Assembly (NCBI GenBank): GCA_949283255.1
Contig: CASDRS010000006.1
Coordinates: forward strand, 1-64,000
DNA: 64,000 bases
DNA from: an uncultured bacterium
Lineage (GTDB): Bacteria > Cyanobacteriota > Vampirovibrionia > Gastranaerophilales > Gastranaerophilaceae
Direction of reading: 5' to 3'
The notes beneath the pieces were generated by a model, which did not search any database, had not been told where the DNA came from, and saw only the letters and a program-made list of their open reading frames with translations. The position numbers and the translations under genes were made by a program. Numbering within the stretch: position 1 is the stretch's first letter; each line of letters starts with the position of its first letter. Positions 19,532 to 33,099 of this stretch are shown here, in pieces.

Positions 19532-20812
19532 ATGGATAGATTTTTTGGAATTTTTGGGATTATATTTATATTTTTAATAGCTTTTTTAATGTCAAACAAC
19601 AAAAAAGCCATTAATTACAAAACTGTAGGAATGGGATTTTTATTACAAATATTTCTTGCACTTTTTGTATTCAAATTTCCTCTGGGAAGAGCTCTATTTA
19701 TGAATCTTGGTATGTTTATCCAAAAAATATTGGATTTTGCAAAAGAAGGCGGAGCTTTCGTATTCGGACCATTAATTGATAATTTTAAACTTGAAGCTGT
19801 TTTTAGTTCGGGTGCAAACATTTTTGCTCTACAACTTATCTGTTCACTAATATTTATGATGATTCTTGTAAATATCCTTTATTACTACGGAATAATGCAA
19901 AGAGTTGTCCCTCTTTTTGGAAAAGCTATGAATAAACTAATGTCCGTAAGCGGAGCTGAGGCATTATCTAATGTTGCCAGTGCTTTCGTAGGTCAAATAG
20001 CCGCTCAAATTATGATACGTCCATATTTAGCAAAATTAACTCGTTCTGAACTCCTTGCATCTATGGCAGGAAGTATGGCATGTATTTCTGCAGCCACAAT
20101 GCCTATTTATATTGGGATTGGAATTCCTGCTCAATATTTACTGGCTTCATCTATCATGGCAGCCCCAGGAGCATTGGTCATATCAAAGATTATGTATCCA
20201 GAAACTCACACTCCAGAGACAAGTGAAGACTTTAAAATAACATACAGTAAGAGAAAAAAGCCATATATCAATGTATTTGATGCGATTTCAGCCGGAGCTT
20301 CAGAGGGAATGAAGGTTGCCATAAACGTTGTTGCAATGATTCTTGCGCTAGTTGCACTTGTTGCGATGATTGATTGGTTTTTGGGCGGACTTGGAAATTT
20401 TATTGTTAAATACATTCATATCAATTTTGCAAGTTTTGACCTAACTCATTTATCACTAAAAATGATTCTCGGTAAAATTTTTGCAATATTTGCATTTCTA
20501 ATGGGGGTACCTCTACACGAAGCAACTACGGTTGGAAGCCTTATGGGCACAAAACTTGTACTTAACGAAATGGTAGCTTATGTCGATTTGACTAACCTGC
20601 CTACTCAGTTATCAGCAAAAAGTTATCTTATCGCAAGTTTCGCTCTATGCAGTTTTGGTAACTTCGGATCAATCGCTATCCAACTTGGAGGTATCGGCGA
20701 ACTTGCTCCAAACCAAAGAAAAAACTTGGCAAGACTCGGCGTAAGAGCGCTTATCGCAGGTACTCTTACATGCTACATGTCCGCAGCTATTGTTGGAATT
20801 TTATTTAACTAG
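19532..20812 (+). CDS. Concentrative nucleoside transporter (CNT/NupC family)
   Basis: 426 residues with about ten hydrophobic segments. Cation-coupled nucleoside uptake across the inner membrane is the family role. Family marks are the gate motif SAFVGQIAAQIMIRPYL, GTKLVLNEMVAYVDL, and the C-terminal FALCSFGNFGSIAIQLGGIG, which is close to the CNT CGFANFSSI helix. The N-terminal segments match the Nucleos_tra2_N arrangement. GAGG precedes the ATG. Monocistronic, converging with queA. Substrate preference (purine or pyrimidine) cannot be read from the sequence. Confidence 0.9.
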   Translation: MDRFFGIFGIIFIFLIAFLMSNNKKAINYKTVGMGFLLQIFLALFVFKFPLGRALFMNLGMFIQKILDFAKEGGAFVFGPLIDNFKLEAVFSSGANIFALQLICSLIFMMILVNILYYYGIMQRVVPLFGKAMNKLMSVSGAEALSNVASAFVGQIAAQIMIRPYLAKLTRSELLASMAGSMACISAATMPIYIGIGIPAQYLLASSIMAAPGALVISKIMYPETHTPETSEDFKITYSKRKKPYINVFDAISAGASEGMKVAINVVAMILALVALVAMIDWFLGGLGNFIVKYIHINFASFDLTHLSLKMILGKIFAIFAFLMGVPLHEATTVGSLMGTKLVLNEMVAYVDLTNLPTQLSAKSYLIASFALCSFGNFGSIAIQLGGIGELAPNQRKNLARLGVRALIAGTLTCYMSAAIVGILFN

Positions 20813-23328: not shown

Positions 23329-26300
23329 TTATGCTGCTTGTGATTGTAAAACTTGAGGTTTCAAAACCTTTAAATCAGCAAATACTTTTGCATATTGAGC
23401 CATTGGTCCATCTTGAACTAACCAAGAGAAATCATTTTTAAATGACTTAGTCATCATTTGTCTAAATTGCTCTTTGTTGTTAAATACATCCAAGGCTCTA
23501 CCCATAGCCTCTGCAAAATATTTCTTATTTTCACCAATTACAGCTTCTTTTGAAGGTGTATCCGGCTTAAATTTAGAGAATATAGCGTCAACTCCGTCAG
23601 TTAGACCTGAAGTCAAACCACCTGTCATATTTACGATAGGAATTGCACCACTCCTTACGACAAATTGCTTATGAACTAATCCGCATGGTTCAAACCAACT
23701 TGACATGATTGAATAATCTGACATCAATTTACAAGCATCATATCTGCCTGGTTCTGAGAACAAGTTTGCAAACACAATTCTCTTTGCTGCAGCTTCGCCG
23801 CCTAATTCTGGACTGCTTGCGACTTTACGTTTAATCTCAAGAAGCTTATCTATATATGCTTTAACGCCATCACCCTGAGCATAGAATACAGGATAATTTC
23901 CATCAGGAAATTTACGAGATCTCAACATTTCTTCAATTGATTCTGCAAAGATATCAAGACCTTTTTGGTCAACAATACGACCTGCAGTTGATACAATCAT
24001 TGTGTTCTCGTTAACACCTGTCAAATCCGTCATCTCTTGCATAGACAACTTCATCGGGTTCTTCGGATCTTTAACATCTGCAATAACTCTGTCTAAAATA
24101 ACTTTCTTGTTGTGATTGTGCCATTCAAGAACATCATCACCTTCCTTATAAACTCTCAAAGAATTATCCGGAAGCGCAAGTTGTTTTTCTAACGTACGAG
24201 CTACTTCTGCTGTCAATTCATTGTTTACCCTGTCACATCCGTTTGTAATACCGACGATCGTTTTCTGCCCGTTCAACATTTCAGAATGATCAGATGCCCA
24301 TTTTCTTAACCTAAACAATTCAAAGTTTTCACGACCATATACGCCTTGAGTTGCGATTTCTTCCATATACTTGTCTGATACAGGAATAATAGTATCTGAA
24401 TATGCTGTAGCCATAGTCTGAGGGTTTACACACTCGCCGTGCATCAAGCCGTTCCAACATTTTGCCGGTAAACCTGCCTCATTTGCAGCCTTCATTGCAA
24501 ACTCATCAGCTGCCTTTTCTGCTTCAGTTAATGGTTTATTTGCATTCTTCTTTTCCATTAACAACTTACAGAACACATCAGGATTTTCTTTAACATTTTT
24601 AGATACATAACTTTCAAGTGCACATTTATATACATCAGGCATATAAGCATTTTCTACGATTTCTGCAGCATGCTCGCCGAACAAGATGTTCAATAATTTT
24701 GAATTTGAATGTGCAGTTTGTCCTGACAATCTTGCATTATGTAATATTGTAACAACCGGAGTATTGTAAAGCTTGTCAGCTTCTTTCTTACTCAATTCAC
24801 CTGTTACATCCTTAGCCTTAGTCAACAATCTCATCATTGCAGATATACCGCCTGTGTGCCAATCATTTCCAATAATTAAATCAGCACCAAGTCTTTCATT
24901 TGTATATTCATGACTCTTAGATAAGAATTCATAGAAGAATTTGTCAAAGTATGCAAATCTTTCAGATTCACCTGAATTAATTGTCTTGTTATCATAAATA
25001 GTTTTTGCTTCACCATCAAAACGAGGCCCTTGCATTTCGAATTTTTCATTCTTATAGAATATACCATCAAATGAAACTCTAGCTTTGATATGACCATCAC
25101 CGTCACCTACCAAATCTATCAAACCTTGCTTCCACAAGTTACCGTTTTGAGTTTTGAATTCCGCTTTCTTATCTTCAAGAGGTTTTCTTATAGACTTAAC
25201 CTGTTCTTTTATAGAATTAATTTCTGACGCAATATTTGTTCTTTCTTCTGCAGATATATTTTCAGTTAAACGTTTTTCTTTTTCTGTAATCTGTGCCTCT
25301 AATGGTGCAATATCCGCATTAATTTTATCTCTTAAAGGCGCAGTATCCGCATAGAACTTGCGATATGCTTCTTCATAATTTTGAATACTCTTGTTATATG
25401 CTGCCAAAGTATTTGCATCTAAATAACTTCTCAACAAGTTATAATCAACATCTTGTTTGATACCTTTAGCCATATAAACATCAACATCTTGAACAGTACG
25501 CATCATGTCATCATAAACAGGAATCTTAGCAGAAGCAATTTTCTCTAAATTGCCTACAATAACTTTATCACTTCCGTTCGGACCTGCGAATTTAGAAACC
25601 CAATTATATTTACCGTTACCAAGAGCATTAAGTGCATAATTTGTAGTTGATACACCGTTTTTATCTGACTTATACAATATTTCACCCAGATACATCGGCA
25701 TATCTAAAACCAAACGAACATTTTGTTTATTATTTATAAATGCGCCTAAATTTGCAATAACTTCTCTAGGAACATCTGCCATACCACCGGTCTTAGCAAA
25801 ACCGTTAAATTCTGCGGTTGGAACTCTTATAGTAATATTATCGGAAGGAAGCATATTTGAACGATCAATCAAACCTAACATTCTTCTTGAAGATTCAGTT
25901 CTTAATGCATGCTCTAATTCTCCCGTATATCTGCCATATCCATTTAAGGTATTAGCAAGTCTCATTTTATTACCATTAATAGTAACTTCTTTAGATAAGA
26001 AGTTTGCACCCTTTGCAAGTATTACAGGAGTAGATTTTTCTGAAACTTTACCTTCTACATCTTTAATACTTTTATGGATATCATCTATAATTCCGTCAAA
26101 ATATTTGCCTAAACCTTTCCTATCGGCGACTTCAGTATCAATTCTATTTGACAATCCATTTATAGAAGTTTCTACCTTTTGACCATATATATTCAATTTT
26201 TCTTCAACTTTAGAAGCTATTTGCTGTTCTAATTTATCTAAAGCTTGAGACATGTTCTTTGTCTTGTGGTTTTTCAACCCGCTAACAGCATTAACCCCAA

Positions 26301-26703
26301 GAGAAATCAACGCCAAACCGGCAGCAACATAACCTACAGTCTCTGCTTTAGATGGTTTATTATTCATAGCCGCTACAGGATATGTCTGATATACCGGAGC
26401 CGGCATTGGCTGTTGCATCCCGTTATTCATCGGAGCAACCACTGTAGGCACAACTTGTTGAGGAGTCTGCGCCTGAACCGGTTGAGGCATTACCTGCGGA
26501 ATCGGGGCCTGAGCTACGGGCTGAGATTGAACCGGCTCTGCCATAGGTGCAACACCATTCTGAGATTGTACATTATTATTTTGACTCTGATCTACCGTTG
26601 GTAGAGAAAAACCTTTAGCATTTAATGCAGGCAAACTAAAATTTCGTTGGATAATTGATTGTCCGTTATTTCCAAACGACACCTTCTTAATTGTAAGACT
26701 CAT
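23329..26703 (-). CDS. Giant membrane-anchored glycogen/starch-synthase-like (GT5) protein
   Basis: 1124 residues, over twice the usual GT5 length. Residues 1-115 are Gln/Pro/Val-rich. A membrane segment follows (ETVGYVAAGLALISLGVNAV, 121-140), then a coiled coil (150-225). The GT5 catalytic half starts near 240. KTGGMADV (304-311) equals the ADP-glucose motif KTGGLADV. GNDWHTGG (613-620), VGITNGCD, STAGRIVDQKG (905-915), FEPCGL (1004-1009) and TGGL follow, so the core is intact. A coiled coil is inserted at about 445-515, and the N- and C-terminal halves are both enlarged. AAGGAG precedes the ATG. A glucan polymerase tethered at a membrane is the simplest reading; the substrate is not provable. 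No other glycogen gene is nearby. Confidence 0.8.
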   Translation of the reverse strand: MSLTIKKVSFGNNGQSIIQRNFSLPALNAKGFSLPTVDQSQNNNVQSQNGVAPMAEPVQSQPVAQAPIPQVMPQPVQAQTPQQVVPTVVAPMNNGMQQPMPAPVYQTYPVAAMNNKPSKAETVGYVAAGLALISLGVNAVSGLKNHKTKNMSQALDKLEQQIASKVEEKLNIYGQKVETSINGLSNRIDTEVADRKGLGKYFDGIIDDIHKSIKDVEGKVSEKSTPVILAKGANFLSKEVTINGNKMRLANTLNGYGRYTGELEHALRTESSRRMLGLIDRSNMLPSDNITIRVPTAEFNGFAKTGGMADVPREVIANLGAFINNKQNVRLVLDMPMYLGEILYKSDKNGVSTTNYALNALGNGKYNWVSKFAGPNGSDKVIVGNLEKIASAKIPVYDDMMRTVQDVDVYMAKGIKQDVDYNLLRSYLDANTLAAYNKSIQNYEEAYRKFYADTAPLRDKINADIAPLEAQITEKEKRLTENISAEERTNIASEINSIKEQVKSIRKPLEDKKAEFKTQNGNLWKQGLIDLVGDGDGHIKARVSFDGIFYKNEKFEMQGPRFDGEAKTIYDNKTINSGESERFAYFDKFFYEFLSKSHEYTNERLGADLIIGNDWHTGGISAMMRLLTKAKDVTGELSKKEADKLYNTPVVTILHNARLSGQTAHSNSKLLNILFGEHAAEIVENAYMPDVYKCALESYVSKNVKENPDVFCKLLMEKKNANKPLTEAEKAADEFAMKAANEAGLPAKCWNGLMHGECVNPQTMATAYSDTIIPVSDKYMEEIATQGVYGRENFELFRLRKWASDHSEMLNGQKTIVGITNGCDRVNNELTAEVARTLEKQLALPDNSLRVYKEGDDVLEWHNHNKKVILDRVIADVKDPKNPMKLSMQEMTDLTGVNENTMIVSTAGRIVDQKGLDIFAESIEEMLRSRKFPDGNYPVFYAQGDGVKAYIDKLLEIKRKVASSPELGGEAAAKRIVFANLFSEPGRYDACKLMSDYSIMSSWFEPCGLVHKQFVVRSGAIPIVNMTGGLTSGLTDGVDAIFSKFKPDTPSKEAVIGENKKYFAEAMGRALDVFNNKEQFRQMMTKSFKNDFSWLVQDGPMAQYAKVFADLKVLKPQVLQSQAA

Positions 26704-26901: not shown

Positions 26902-26961
26902 ATTTCTTGCGGGCTAACCGTTAAGGTAGTACGAAATCATAAATAGCGTGGAACATATCAT

Positions 26962-27034
26962 GCGCTTGTAGCTCAGCAGGTAGAGCACTCCCCTTTTAAG
27001 GGATAGGTCGCGCGTTCGAATCGCGCCAAGCGCA
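26962..27034 (+). tRNA. tRNA-Lys (anticodon TTT)
   Basis: The acceptor stem GCGCTTG/CAAGCGC, a D arm with GCTCAGCAGGTAGAGC, the anticodon loop CTTTTAA and a T arm with GCGCGTTCGAATCGCGC. The 3' CCA is not encoded, unlike tRNA-Pro here. Confidence 0.97.
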
Positions 27035-27072
27035 AAATAAAGGATAAGTAAATACTTGTCCTTTATTTTTTT
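27035..27072. terminator. Terminator of tRNA-Lys
   Basis: AATAAAGGATAAGTA pairs with TACTTGTCCTTTATT (one wobble) and is followed by a T-run. It could also serve the converging HTH gene that ends at 27096. Confidence 0.85.
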
Positions 27073-31539: not shown

Positions 31540-33099
31540 TTATTTTGCTTGGGTAGTAATCAAATCTATAGTACTTTGAGCTTTTTCTCTAGTATTATAC
31601 TGTCCAGTACCAGGAACTTGTTTACCATCCTCACAGAATACGATAATCCATTTACCGTTTCTTTGAACTTTTGCATATTTTCTGTCTCCAGAACCTCTAA
31701 CGACTACGGCATCTCTAAAGCCTCGTTTTGCCTTTGCATCAGCATCATCCGCAAGTTTTGCAACACCGTTTTCAAGAGGGATTTCTGTCAACAATTCTCT
31801 ATGTCTTCTATCAACAGTTTGTATAGCATACTTACCTGATGATAATTTTTTCTGCAATTCTTTGAATGTTTTAGAGTTAATTATAAACGGCTTACCATTT
31901 TCATCGACATACAACTGAGCATAATGATAAGGACCACCACCAACAATTGTTGAGATTTTAGCAGTTTGAGCAGGAAGCTCTTCCGGTCTCATACATGGCG
32001 GTTCTGGACATTCCTCCTCAGGTTTAACAACCGGTTCTTCCTTCTTAGGTTCAGGTTTAGGTTCTTCTTTTACCTCTACTTTTGGAGCCTCAGGTTGAGG
32101 ACGATTTTCGAATACTTCTTGAGCCTGACCACGAACATTCTTTCCGTCCTTATCTGACACGAATGCTGCTGCAAGTATAGGAGCGACACCGCCAATAATC
32201 TGTCCAACTCTATTTGTTGCTGTAGCTTTTGCATACGCACCGGCATCTGCTCCTGCTGATGCGCTACCTGCAGCAGCTCCGGCACTAGAAGCAGCTCCGG
32301 CGATTGCCGTTGATACTGCACCTCCGAATACAAAAGAACTTACACCGGCACCGATTAGTAAACTACGATATAACCAAGTTCTATCTTTACGATAACCAAG
32401 ACCAGCAGCTTTAACAGCATCCTTTTCTGCATTCTTACTTAAACCACGCTTTTCTGCATGTTCGGCTCTGCCTGCCAATGTCAAACGATAACCGCTTGTA
32501 TCTTTTACCATCTCAGCTTTATACTTTTCAGGATCGAAGATATATTGACCGTTGGCACCTTTTATTAATTCACCTTTTTCATCTGTCATAAAATATGTTT
32601 TTGCATTTTTTGGATCATTTATCATTGCAAGAACTTTTTTATTCTTTATTAATTTTGGAGTGTATAAATCTTCTTTGCCTTCAGCTTTTAACTGATCTTT
32701 AAATTTTTCATAAGCTTCTTTGTCTATAAATGGTATAGTAACTTTTGATTTAGCCTGATCTTTTTCATTTTTTACTTGAGCTTTTGCTAGTTTCTTGGCT
32801 TGATCATAAGTATAAACTCTTTGACCATCTTCATTAGTTTGTTGCAATAAATAGCTTGTCAGCTCTGTACGTCTCGCTTTTTGAGCATCTTTACTGTTTA
32901 AAAACTGATGAATTCTTGTCGCACCTGATTCATCTACAGTAGAAACGTCTCCGGCCTTCATAAAAATTGGCTCTTTAATTCTTGTTTCAGATGGATTTGA
33001 AACCTGAGTAGAGTCATGTTCAGGTTTTACATTTTGAACTTTGACCTGTTGTGAATCTTGCTGTTCTACAGGTTTGTATAAAGTAACCTTAATCCCCAT
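31540..33099 (-). CDS. Unknown 519-residue protein with glycine-zipper segment and Pro/Glu/Lys linker
   Basis: I do not recognise the family. Residues 1-60 are Gln/Val-rich and disordered, 60-235 charged and helical. A hydrophobic Ala/Gly segment lies at about 242-315 (LLIGAGVSSFVFGGAVSTAI, then an Ala/Ser/Gly run), so membrane insertion is likely. An E/P/K-rich linker (335-370) has CPEPPC at its end, and a folded C-terminal domain follows (380-519, beta-rich, WIIVFCEDGKQVPGTGQYNT). There is no cleavable signal. The disordered-N-terminus plus membrane layout resembles that of the GT5 protein. AAAGGAA precedes the ATG. Confidence 0.65.
   Translation of the reverse strand: MGIKVTLYKPVEQQDSQQVKVQNVKPEHDSTQVSNPSETRIKEPIFMKAGDVSTVDESGATRIHQFLNSKDAQKARRTELTSYLLQQTNEDGQRVYTYDQAKKLAKAQVKNEKDQAKSKVTIPFIDKEAYEKFKDQLKAEGKEDLYTPKLIKNKKVLAMINDPKNAKTYFMTDEKGELIKGANGQYIFDPEKYKAEMVKDTSGYRLTLAGRAEHAEKRGLSKNAEKDAVKAAGLGYRKDRTWLYRSLLIGAGVSSFVFGGAVSTAIAGAASSAGAAAGSASAGADAGAYAKATATNRVGQIIGGVAPILAAAFVSDKDGKNVRGQAQEVFENRPQPEAPKVEVKEEPKPEPKKEEPVVKPEEECPEPPCMRPEELPAQTAKISTIVGGGPYHYAQLYVDENGKPFIINSKTFKELQKKLSSGKYAIQTVDRRHRELLTEIPLENGVAKLADDADAKAKRGFRDAVVVRGSGDRKYAKVQRNGKWIIVFCEDGKQVPGTGQYNTREKAQSTIDLITTQAK

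Follow-up and report, generated by a model that had tools for sequence, protein, structure and literature searches.

Enzymes of family GT5 are regarded as soluble, near-universal synthases of storage polymers. The window analyzed here, a stretch of 64,000 nucleotides, comes from a bacterium of the Gastranaerophilales (Melainabacteria) whose 1.82-Mb genome is assembled into 22 contigs, and encodes a GT5-like protein of 1,124 residues, as against about 480 for GlgA. It raises the question of what such a protein might do in a cell whose genome encodes GlgC and a canonical GlgA of 480 residues elsewhere. The presence of this canonical enzyme excludes, for the window genome, the simplest answer, namely that the large protein stands in for a missing GlgA.

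Catalytic core and putative membrane anchor

The reading frame claimed for the protein in the first-pass annotation of this DNA is real; it is unbroken and lies on the minus strand (Table 1). The assignment of the protein to GT5 in that annotation is likewise borne out, since the starch synthase catalytic domain PF08323 scores 58.2 bits, above the Pfam gathering cut-off of 22.7, and the structural model has a GlgA-like fold. Against the GlgA equivalog TIGR02095 the protein scores 108.9 bits, far below the trusted cut-off of 328.45; existing profiles give such genes at best a weak glycogen synthase label. Relatives with E ≤1e-20 are found in 66 of the 383 genomes of the order Gastranaerophilales, and the intact ones in this order number about 60 or more. 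A lone oddity or an assembly artefact was therefore rejected, and the window protein is one type within a large, order-wide group. Its own type, termed A below, was confined to this bacterial family in a phylum-wide profile search considering matches with E ≤1e-60. Among titles and abstracts, no relevant literature was found on a glycosyltransferase or glycogen synthase of this kind from Gastranaerophilales.

Table 1. Positions of the features discussed (window coordinates, or locus:coordinates for other genomes).
Feature	Residues	Position	Strand	Remarks
Large GT5-like protein, type A	1-1124	23329..26703	(-)	1124 aa; stop at 23329-23331; intact in about 30 A-type relatives
Leader MSLTIKKVSFGN	1-12	26668..26703	(-)	Conserved consensus
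Gln/Pro-rich stretch, predicted disordered	13-121	26341..26667	(-)	pLDDT about 25-32
Putative membrane anchor TVGYVAAGLALISLGVNAVSGL	122-143	26275..26340	(-)	Weak single hydrophobic helix
Long helix (stalk)	149-222	26038..26259	(-)	Model pLDDT 51-60
GT5 N-domain, first part	287-427	25423..25845	(-)	KTGGMADV (K304); extra long beta strands
Helical insert inside N-terminal Rossmann domain	430-520	25144..25416	(-)	PF08323 alignment, model
GT5 N-domain, remainder	539-800	24304..25089	(-)	NDWH (D614), HN (H655/N656)
C-terminal GT-B domain	815-1112	23368..24261	(-)	R909, K914, FEPCGL (E1005), TGGL
tRNA-Lys		26961..27035	(+)	Upstream of the frame; conserved slot boundary in A and C species of the genus
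NupC-like nucleoside transporter		19532..20812	(+)	Slot-adjacent in most genera; three genes away in the window
ARAGORN anticodon-TTA calls; tRNA-Lys of neighboring species is TTT		L112:151-225, L113:18142-18216, L114:4667-4741, L134:7474-7546
Type E slot proteins with SRFAPCEL		L156:7065-9707, L158:9220-12570, L159:8991-12473

The model of the window protein (AlphaFold2 from a 25-sequence input, mean pLDDT 78.8) shows the full GT-B/GT5 fold. E. coli GlgA (PDB 2qzs) superposes on it with 464 of 477 residues at 2.7 Å and a Z-score of 26.8, and Arabidopsis SSIV matches equally well (Z 26.7). The motifs KTGGMADV and FEPCGL, previously described as intact, are both found, together with NDWH, HN, GR..DQKG and TGGL, and the equivalents of H161, R300, K305, E377 and K15 of GlgA are all present. 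Moreover, the GlgA-equivalent residues H655/N656, D614, R909, K914 and E1005 are invariant in 25 relatives. The catalytic geometry, the loss of which had been named as one of two points on which the claim could fail, holds in the model at the level of the fold.

N-terminal of this core lie a leader, a disordered stretch, a weak membrane helix and a long helix, all of them conserved among relatives. The leader consensus, M-x-[IV]-x-K-[IV]-[ST]-F, is common to the window type, to the C types and to the B type of genus g5. For residues 1-121, composition and model agree with the earlier description of a Gln/Pro-rich disordered N-terminus, disorder in the model extending to residue 152. The membrane helix proposed in the first-pass annotation corresponds to residues 122-143, the only hydrophobic segment of the protein, which is directly followed by KNHKTKN and is thus Lys-flanked on its C-terminal side. 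Its Kyte-Doolittle value is 1.71 over 19 residues, compared with maxima of 0.98 for canonical GlgA and 2.37 for YidC, and in the model it is of low confidence. A hydrophobic segment recurs at the same place in the full-length relatives. It is a putative anchor, albeit a weakly hydrophobic one (about 1.4-2.1), by which the window protein is predicted from its sequence to be membrane-tethered.

The two coiled coils of the earlier description fare less well. The model does contain a long helix at residues 149-222 and helices at residues 430-520, but in a simple periodicity test the former peaks at 3.6 rather than at the heptad value of 3.5, and the latter have no clear hydrophobic period, so that a coiled coil is unproven for either. 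Nor does the second region separate the catalytic halves, as had been supposed. PF08323 positions 94-184 map to residues 566-673, C-terminal of the insert, and the model concurs in placing the helices, along with extra beta strands, within the first Rossmann domain. Overall, there is good support for an enzyme of GT5 fold whose catalytic core is complete and whose putative membrane anchor is conserved. It resembles GlgA in its fold and in the equivalents of H161, R300, K305 and E377, and differs from it in the leader, the putative anchor, the long helix and the Rossmann insert.

Unrelated proteins (at L130:4334-5455, L133, L141, L145 and other loci) likewise begin with a leader of the form [IV][ST]F[GKR], after which come disorder and then a hydrophobic segment. 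This arrangement might serve as a signal for sorting or anchoring that is specific to the lineage. An N-terminal SFxG was only 1.8-fold enriched in an unbiased sample of the window genome, and a Pfam search of three other leader-bearing proteins gave no match.

In plants, MFP1, which possesses a transmembrane segment and long coiled coils, decides the sites of SS4 and of starch granules, and SS5 is bound by MRC (PMC10801857). A GT5 core held at a membrane by a transmembrane segment and long helices would be common to SS4 with MFP1 and to the window protein, for which the tether is predicted. The plant anchor and enzyme are separate, however, whereas here they form a single chain, the catalytic part of which is exchanged between species. 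By this parallel, the tethered GT5 might initiate or anchor ordinary α-glucan at the membrane, with soluble GlgA completing the particle. The equal fit of the model to SSIV and to GlgA, the arrangement of MFP1, and the presence of GlgC and GlgA in the genome all argue for such a role. Conversely, a GH13 branching enzyme (TIGR01515) was not found in the window genome despite GlgA and GlgC, and the glycogen system may therefore be incomplete or use another enzyme. Membrane initiation of glycogen is a close rival of the reading favored below, though somewhat less probable.

One enzyme per genome at a single slot

By profile searches and the reading of gene neighborhoods, the large GT5-like proteins fall into five or more types, of which five are termed A to E. 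Types B and C carry their putative anchor at the N-terminus; in types D and E the core comes first and a hydrophobic Ala/Gly-rich segment lies near the C-terminus, so that the parts are reversed relative to A. Type D is nearly invisible to Pfam. Its model has a GT5 fold, with starch synthases as the best match (6gnf, Z 26.0, 494 of 514 residues), and the core is followed by approximately 100 residues of helix and then by the hydrophobic segment, in mirror order to type A. That A and D are built from these three parts in mutually reversed order provides independent support for a tether, and the similar hydrophobic segment at the opposite end of types D and E strengthens the case for membrane tethering of the window protein. 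Further large GT5-like frames lie outside the five types, with 763 residues in G013 and G007 and about 800 residues in genomes of genus g13.

In genera g1 to g12, exactly one of types A to E is present in 67 of the 68 genomes that were searched with all profiles, and two are present in none, several of the B and C assignments in this tally being by profile match and neighborhood only. Complementarity is complete in g1, g6 and g10, with a chance probability of about 2e-6 if genomes are taken as independent, a value that overstates the case because genomes within a genus are related. The one-per-genome rule fails in g13, where several genomes hold type A and one further large GT5-like frame. Genus and type disagree, with A, B and C in g5, C and D in g10, A and D in g6, and A and C in g1.

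Related species carry different types in the same interval, the flanks remaining alignable at about 70-85% and the gene between them being unalignable. In g5, the A locus L118 and the C locus L110 are about 84% identical up to the upstream gene and 69% identical across leader and anchor; there follow 2.5 kb without alignment, and 84% identity resumes just past the stop codon. In the B locus L134 of the same genus, the entire gene is replaced save a stretch of about 110 bp at the start codon and its surroundings. In g10 (C and D) and in g6 (A and D), unchanged flanks enclose the alternative type in reversed orientation; for g6 this applies to the ClpC side and to three of the five A loci that were read. 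In g1, where A and C replace one another, the slot is bounded by tRNA-Lys and NupC, and at 13 of 20 further loci, drawn from g2, g3, g4, g7, g8, g9, g10, g11 and g12, the immediate upstream neighbor of the NupC-like gene is again such a GT5-like protein. The locus is thus fixed, and its alleles are mutually exclusive.

The slot neighborhoods showed neither a conserved operon partner nor an exporter or a glycan cluster, and an operon with a glycan cluster was rejected on these grounds. Also rejected was a TTA "suppressor" tRNA beside the slot in some species, since its loop has the same sequence as the loop of the Lys tRNA and the difference lies solely in the pairing drawn by ARAGORN. Other genomes of the genus also have, close to the slot, the 519-residue protein encoded at 31540-33099 (-) of the window, which has no match in Pfam and contains an Ala/Gly-rich hydrophobic stretch in its interior.

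Replacement of a whole gene at a fixed site with a constant N-module is also what might be observed for a conflict gene, in phage defence or as an effector, that exchanges its catalytic part while leader and anchor stay the same, and the unrelated proteins with similar leader-plus-anchor N-termini would fit such a role. Yet the gene is present in one copy in almost all genomes, at a core locus rather than on a mobile island; it has no partner gene, and the GT4-conflict model gives hits below threshold only. A role in conflict is considered improbable.

The equivalents of GlgA H161/N162, R300 and K305 are invariant over types A to E and canonical GlgA, and that of E377 is retained in A, B, C and D. 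In all three type E sequences read, this position is Ala (SRFAPCEL), which suggests a GT5 with altered or lost catalysis, so that not every type need be a transferase. In addition, the KTGG lysine, equivalent to Lys15 of E. coli GlgA, a donor-binding residue, is present in the window protein and is replaced, mostly by Ser, in 19 of 30 A-type relatives, close relatives from the same genus among them. Both substitutions could be explained by a scaffold at the membrane that binds glucan, its GT-B fold serving chiefly as a lectin. Against this, type A strictly conserves every other catalytic residue, and E377 is also found in B, C and D; like the effector or defence gene, the lectin-like scaffold is improbable and one of the less likely readings. 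An impaired type E could also be a non-catalytic helper in membrane glycogen initiation, with plant SS5 as a possible parallel.

Histories of anchor and catalytic part, and the possible role of the slot

Proteins of one genus have their anchor in common although their catalytic parts are less than 30% identical. Types A and C of g5 are 67% identical in the N-module and 29% in the catalytic part; conversely, the A types of g5 and g6 are 41% and 67% identical in these respective parts, and the C types of g5 and g1 are 28% and 53% identical. Judged by these identities, the anchor tracks the genus and the catalytic part tracks the type, giving two histories in one gene. Chimeric assembly does not account for this, since types A, C, D and E were each found in several independent genomes.

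Serotype glycosyltransferase loci are fixed loci with constant flanks and interchangeable catalytic genes, one per strain. By analogy, the present slot resembles them in its fixed position, constant flanks, interchangeable catalytic genes and single type per genome. It differs in that it consists of a single gene of GT5 fold without a glycan cluster. Exchange of the catalytic part at a constant slot is as expected if the product is selected to vary, as surface glycans are, and if a swap changes the glycan that is made, this would be the likely reason for the exchange of types between related species.

Together, these observations favor, as a tentative reading that stops somewhat short of probable, a single-pass, membrane-tethered GT5 that sets a type-specific glycan and is one of the interchangeable types A to E of a single slot. 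The N-terminal hydrophobic anchor and helical stalk would keep the GT-B domain in the cytosol beside the membrane. There it would act on an acceptor close to the membrane, adding to it a sugar, most likely glucose donated by ADP- or UDP-glucose. A swap of type would then alter the glycan, and the product would be a type-specific envelope glycan. Counting against this reading are the lack of an operon partner, the weakness of the anchor, the Ala of type E and the replacement of the K15 equivalent in many A-type proteins. While same-locus exchange fits an envelope glycan, membrane-sited glycogen initiation would fit the anatomy equally well; on its own, however, it leaves unexplained why five divergent types are exchanged within genera. 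The wider proposition, in which a multi-allelic, one-per-genome locus with at least five divergent tethered GT5 types in two domain orders determines the glycan type of the cell, is possible but more doubtful.

The multi-allelic GT5 slot is new here, and is a larger discovery than the single protein. In this order of gut bacteria, which belongs to a non-photosynthetic sister lineage of the cyanobacteria, GT5 is apparently tethered to the membrane in two opposite orders, and its catalytic part is exchanged at the slot. Should the slot site glycogen, it would be a one-protein bacterial counterpart to granule initiation by SS4 and MFP1 in plants. If instead it sets the glycan type, it would offer an easy way to follow how the surface varies among uncultured Vampirovibrionia of the gut.
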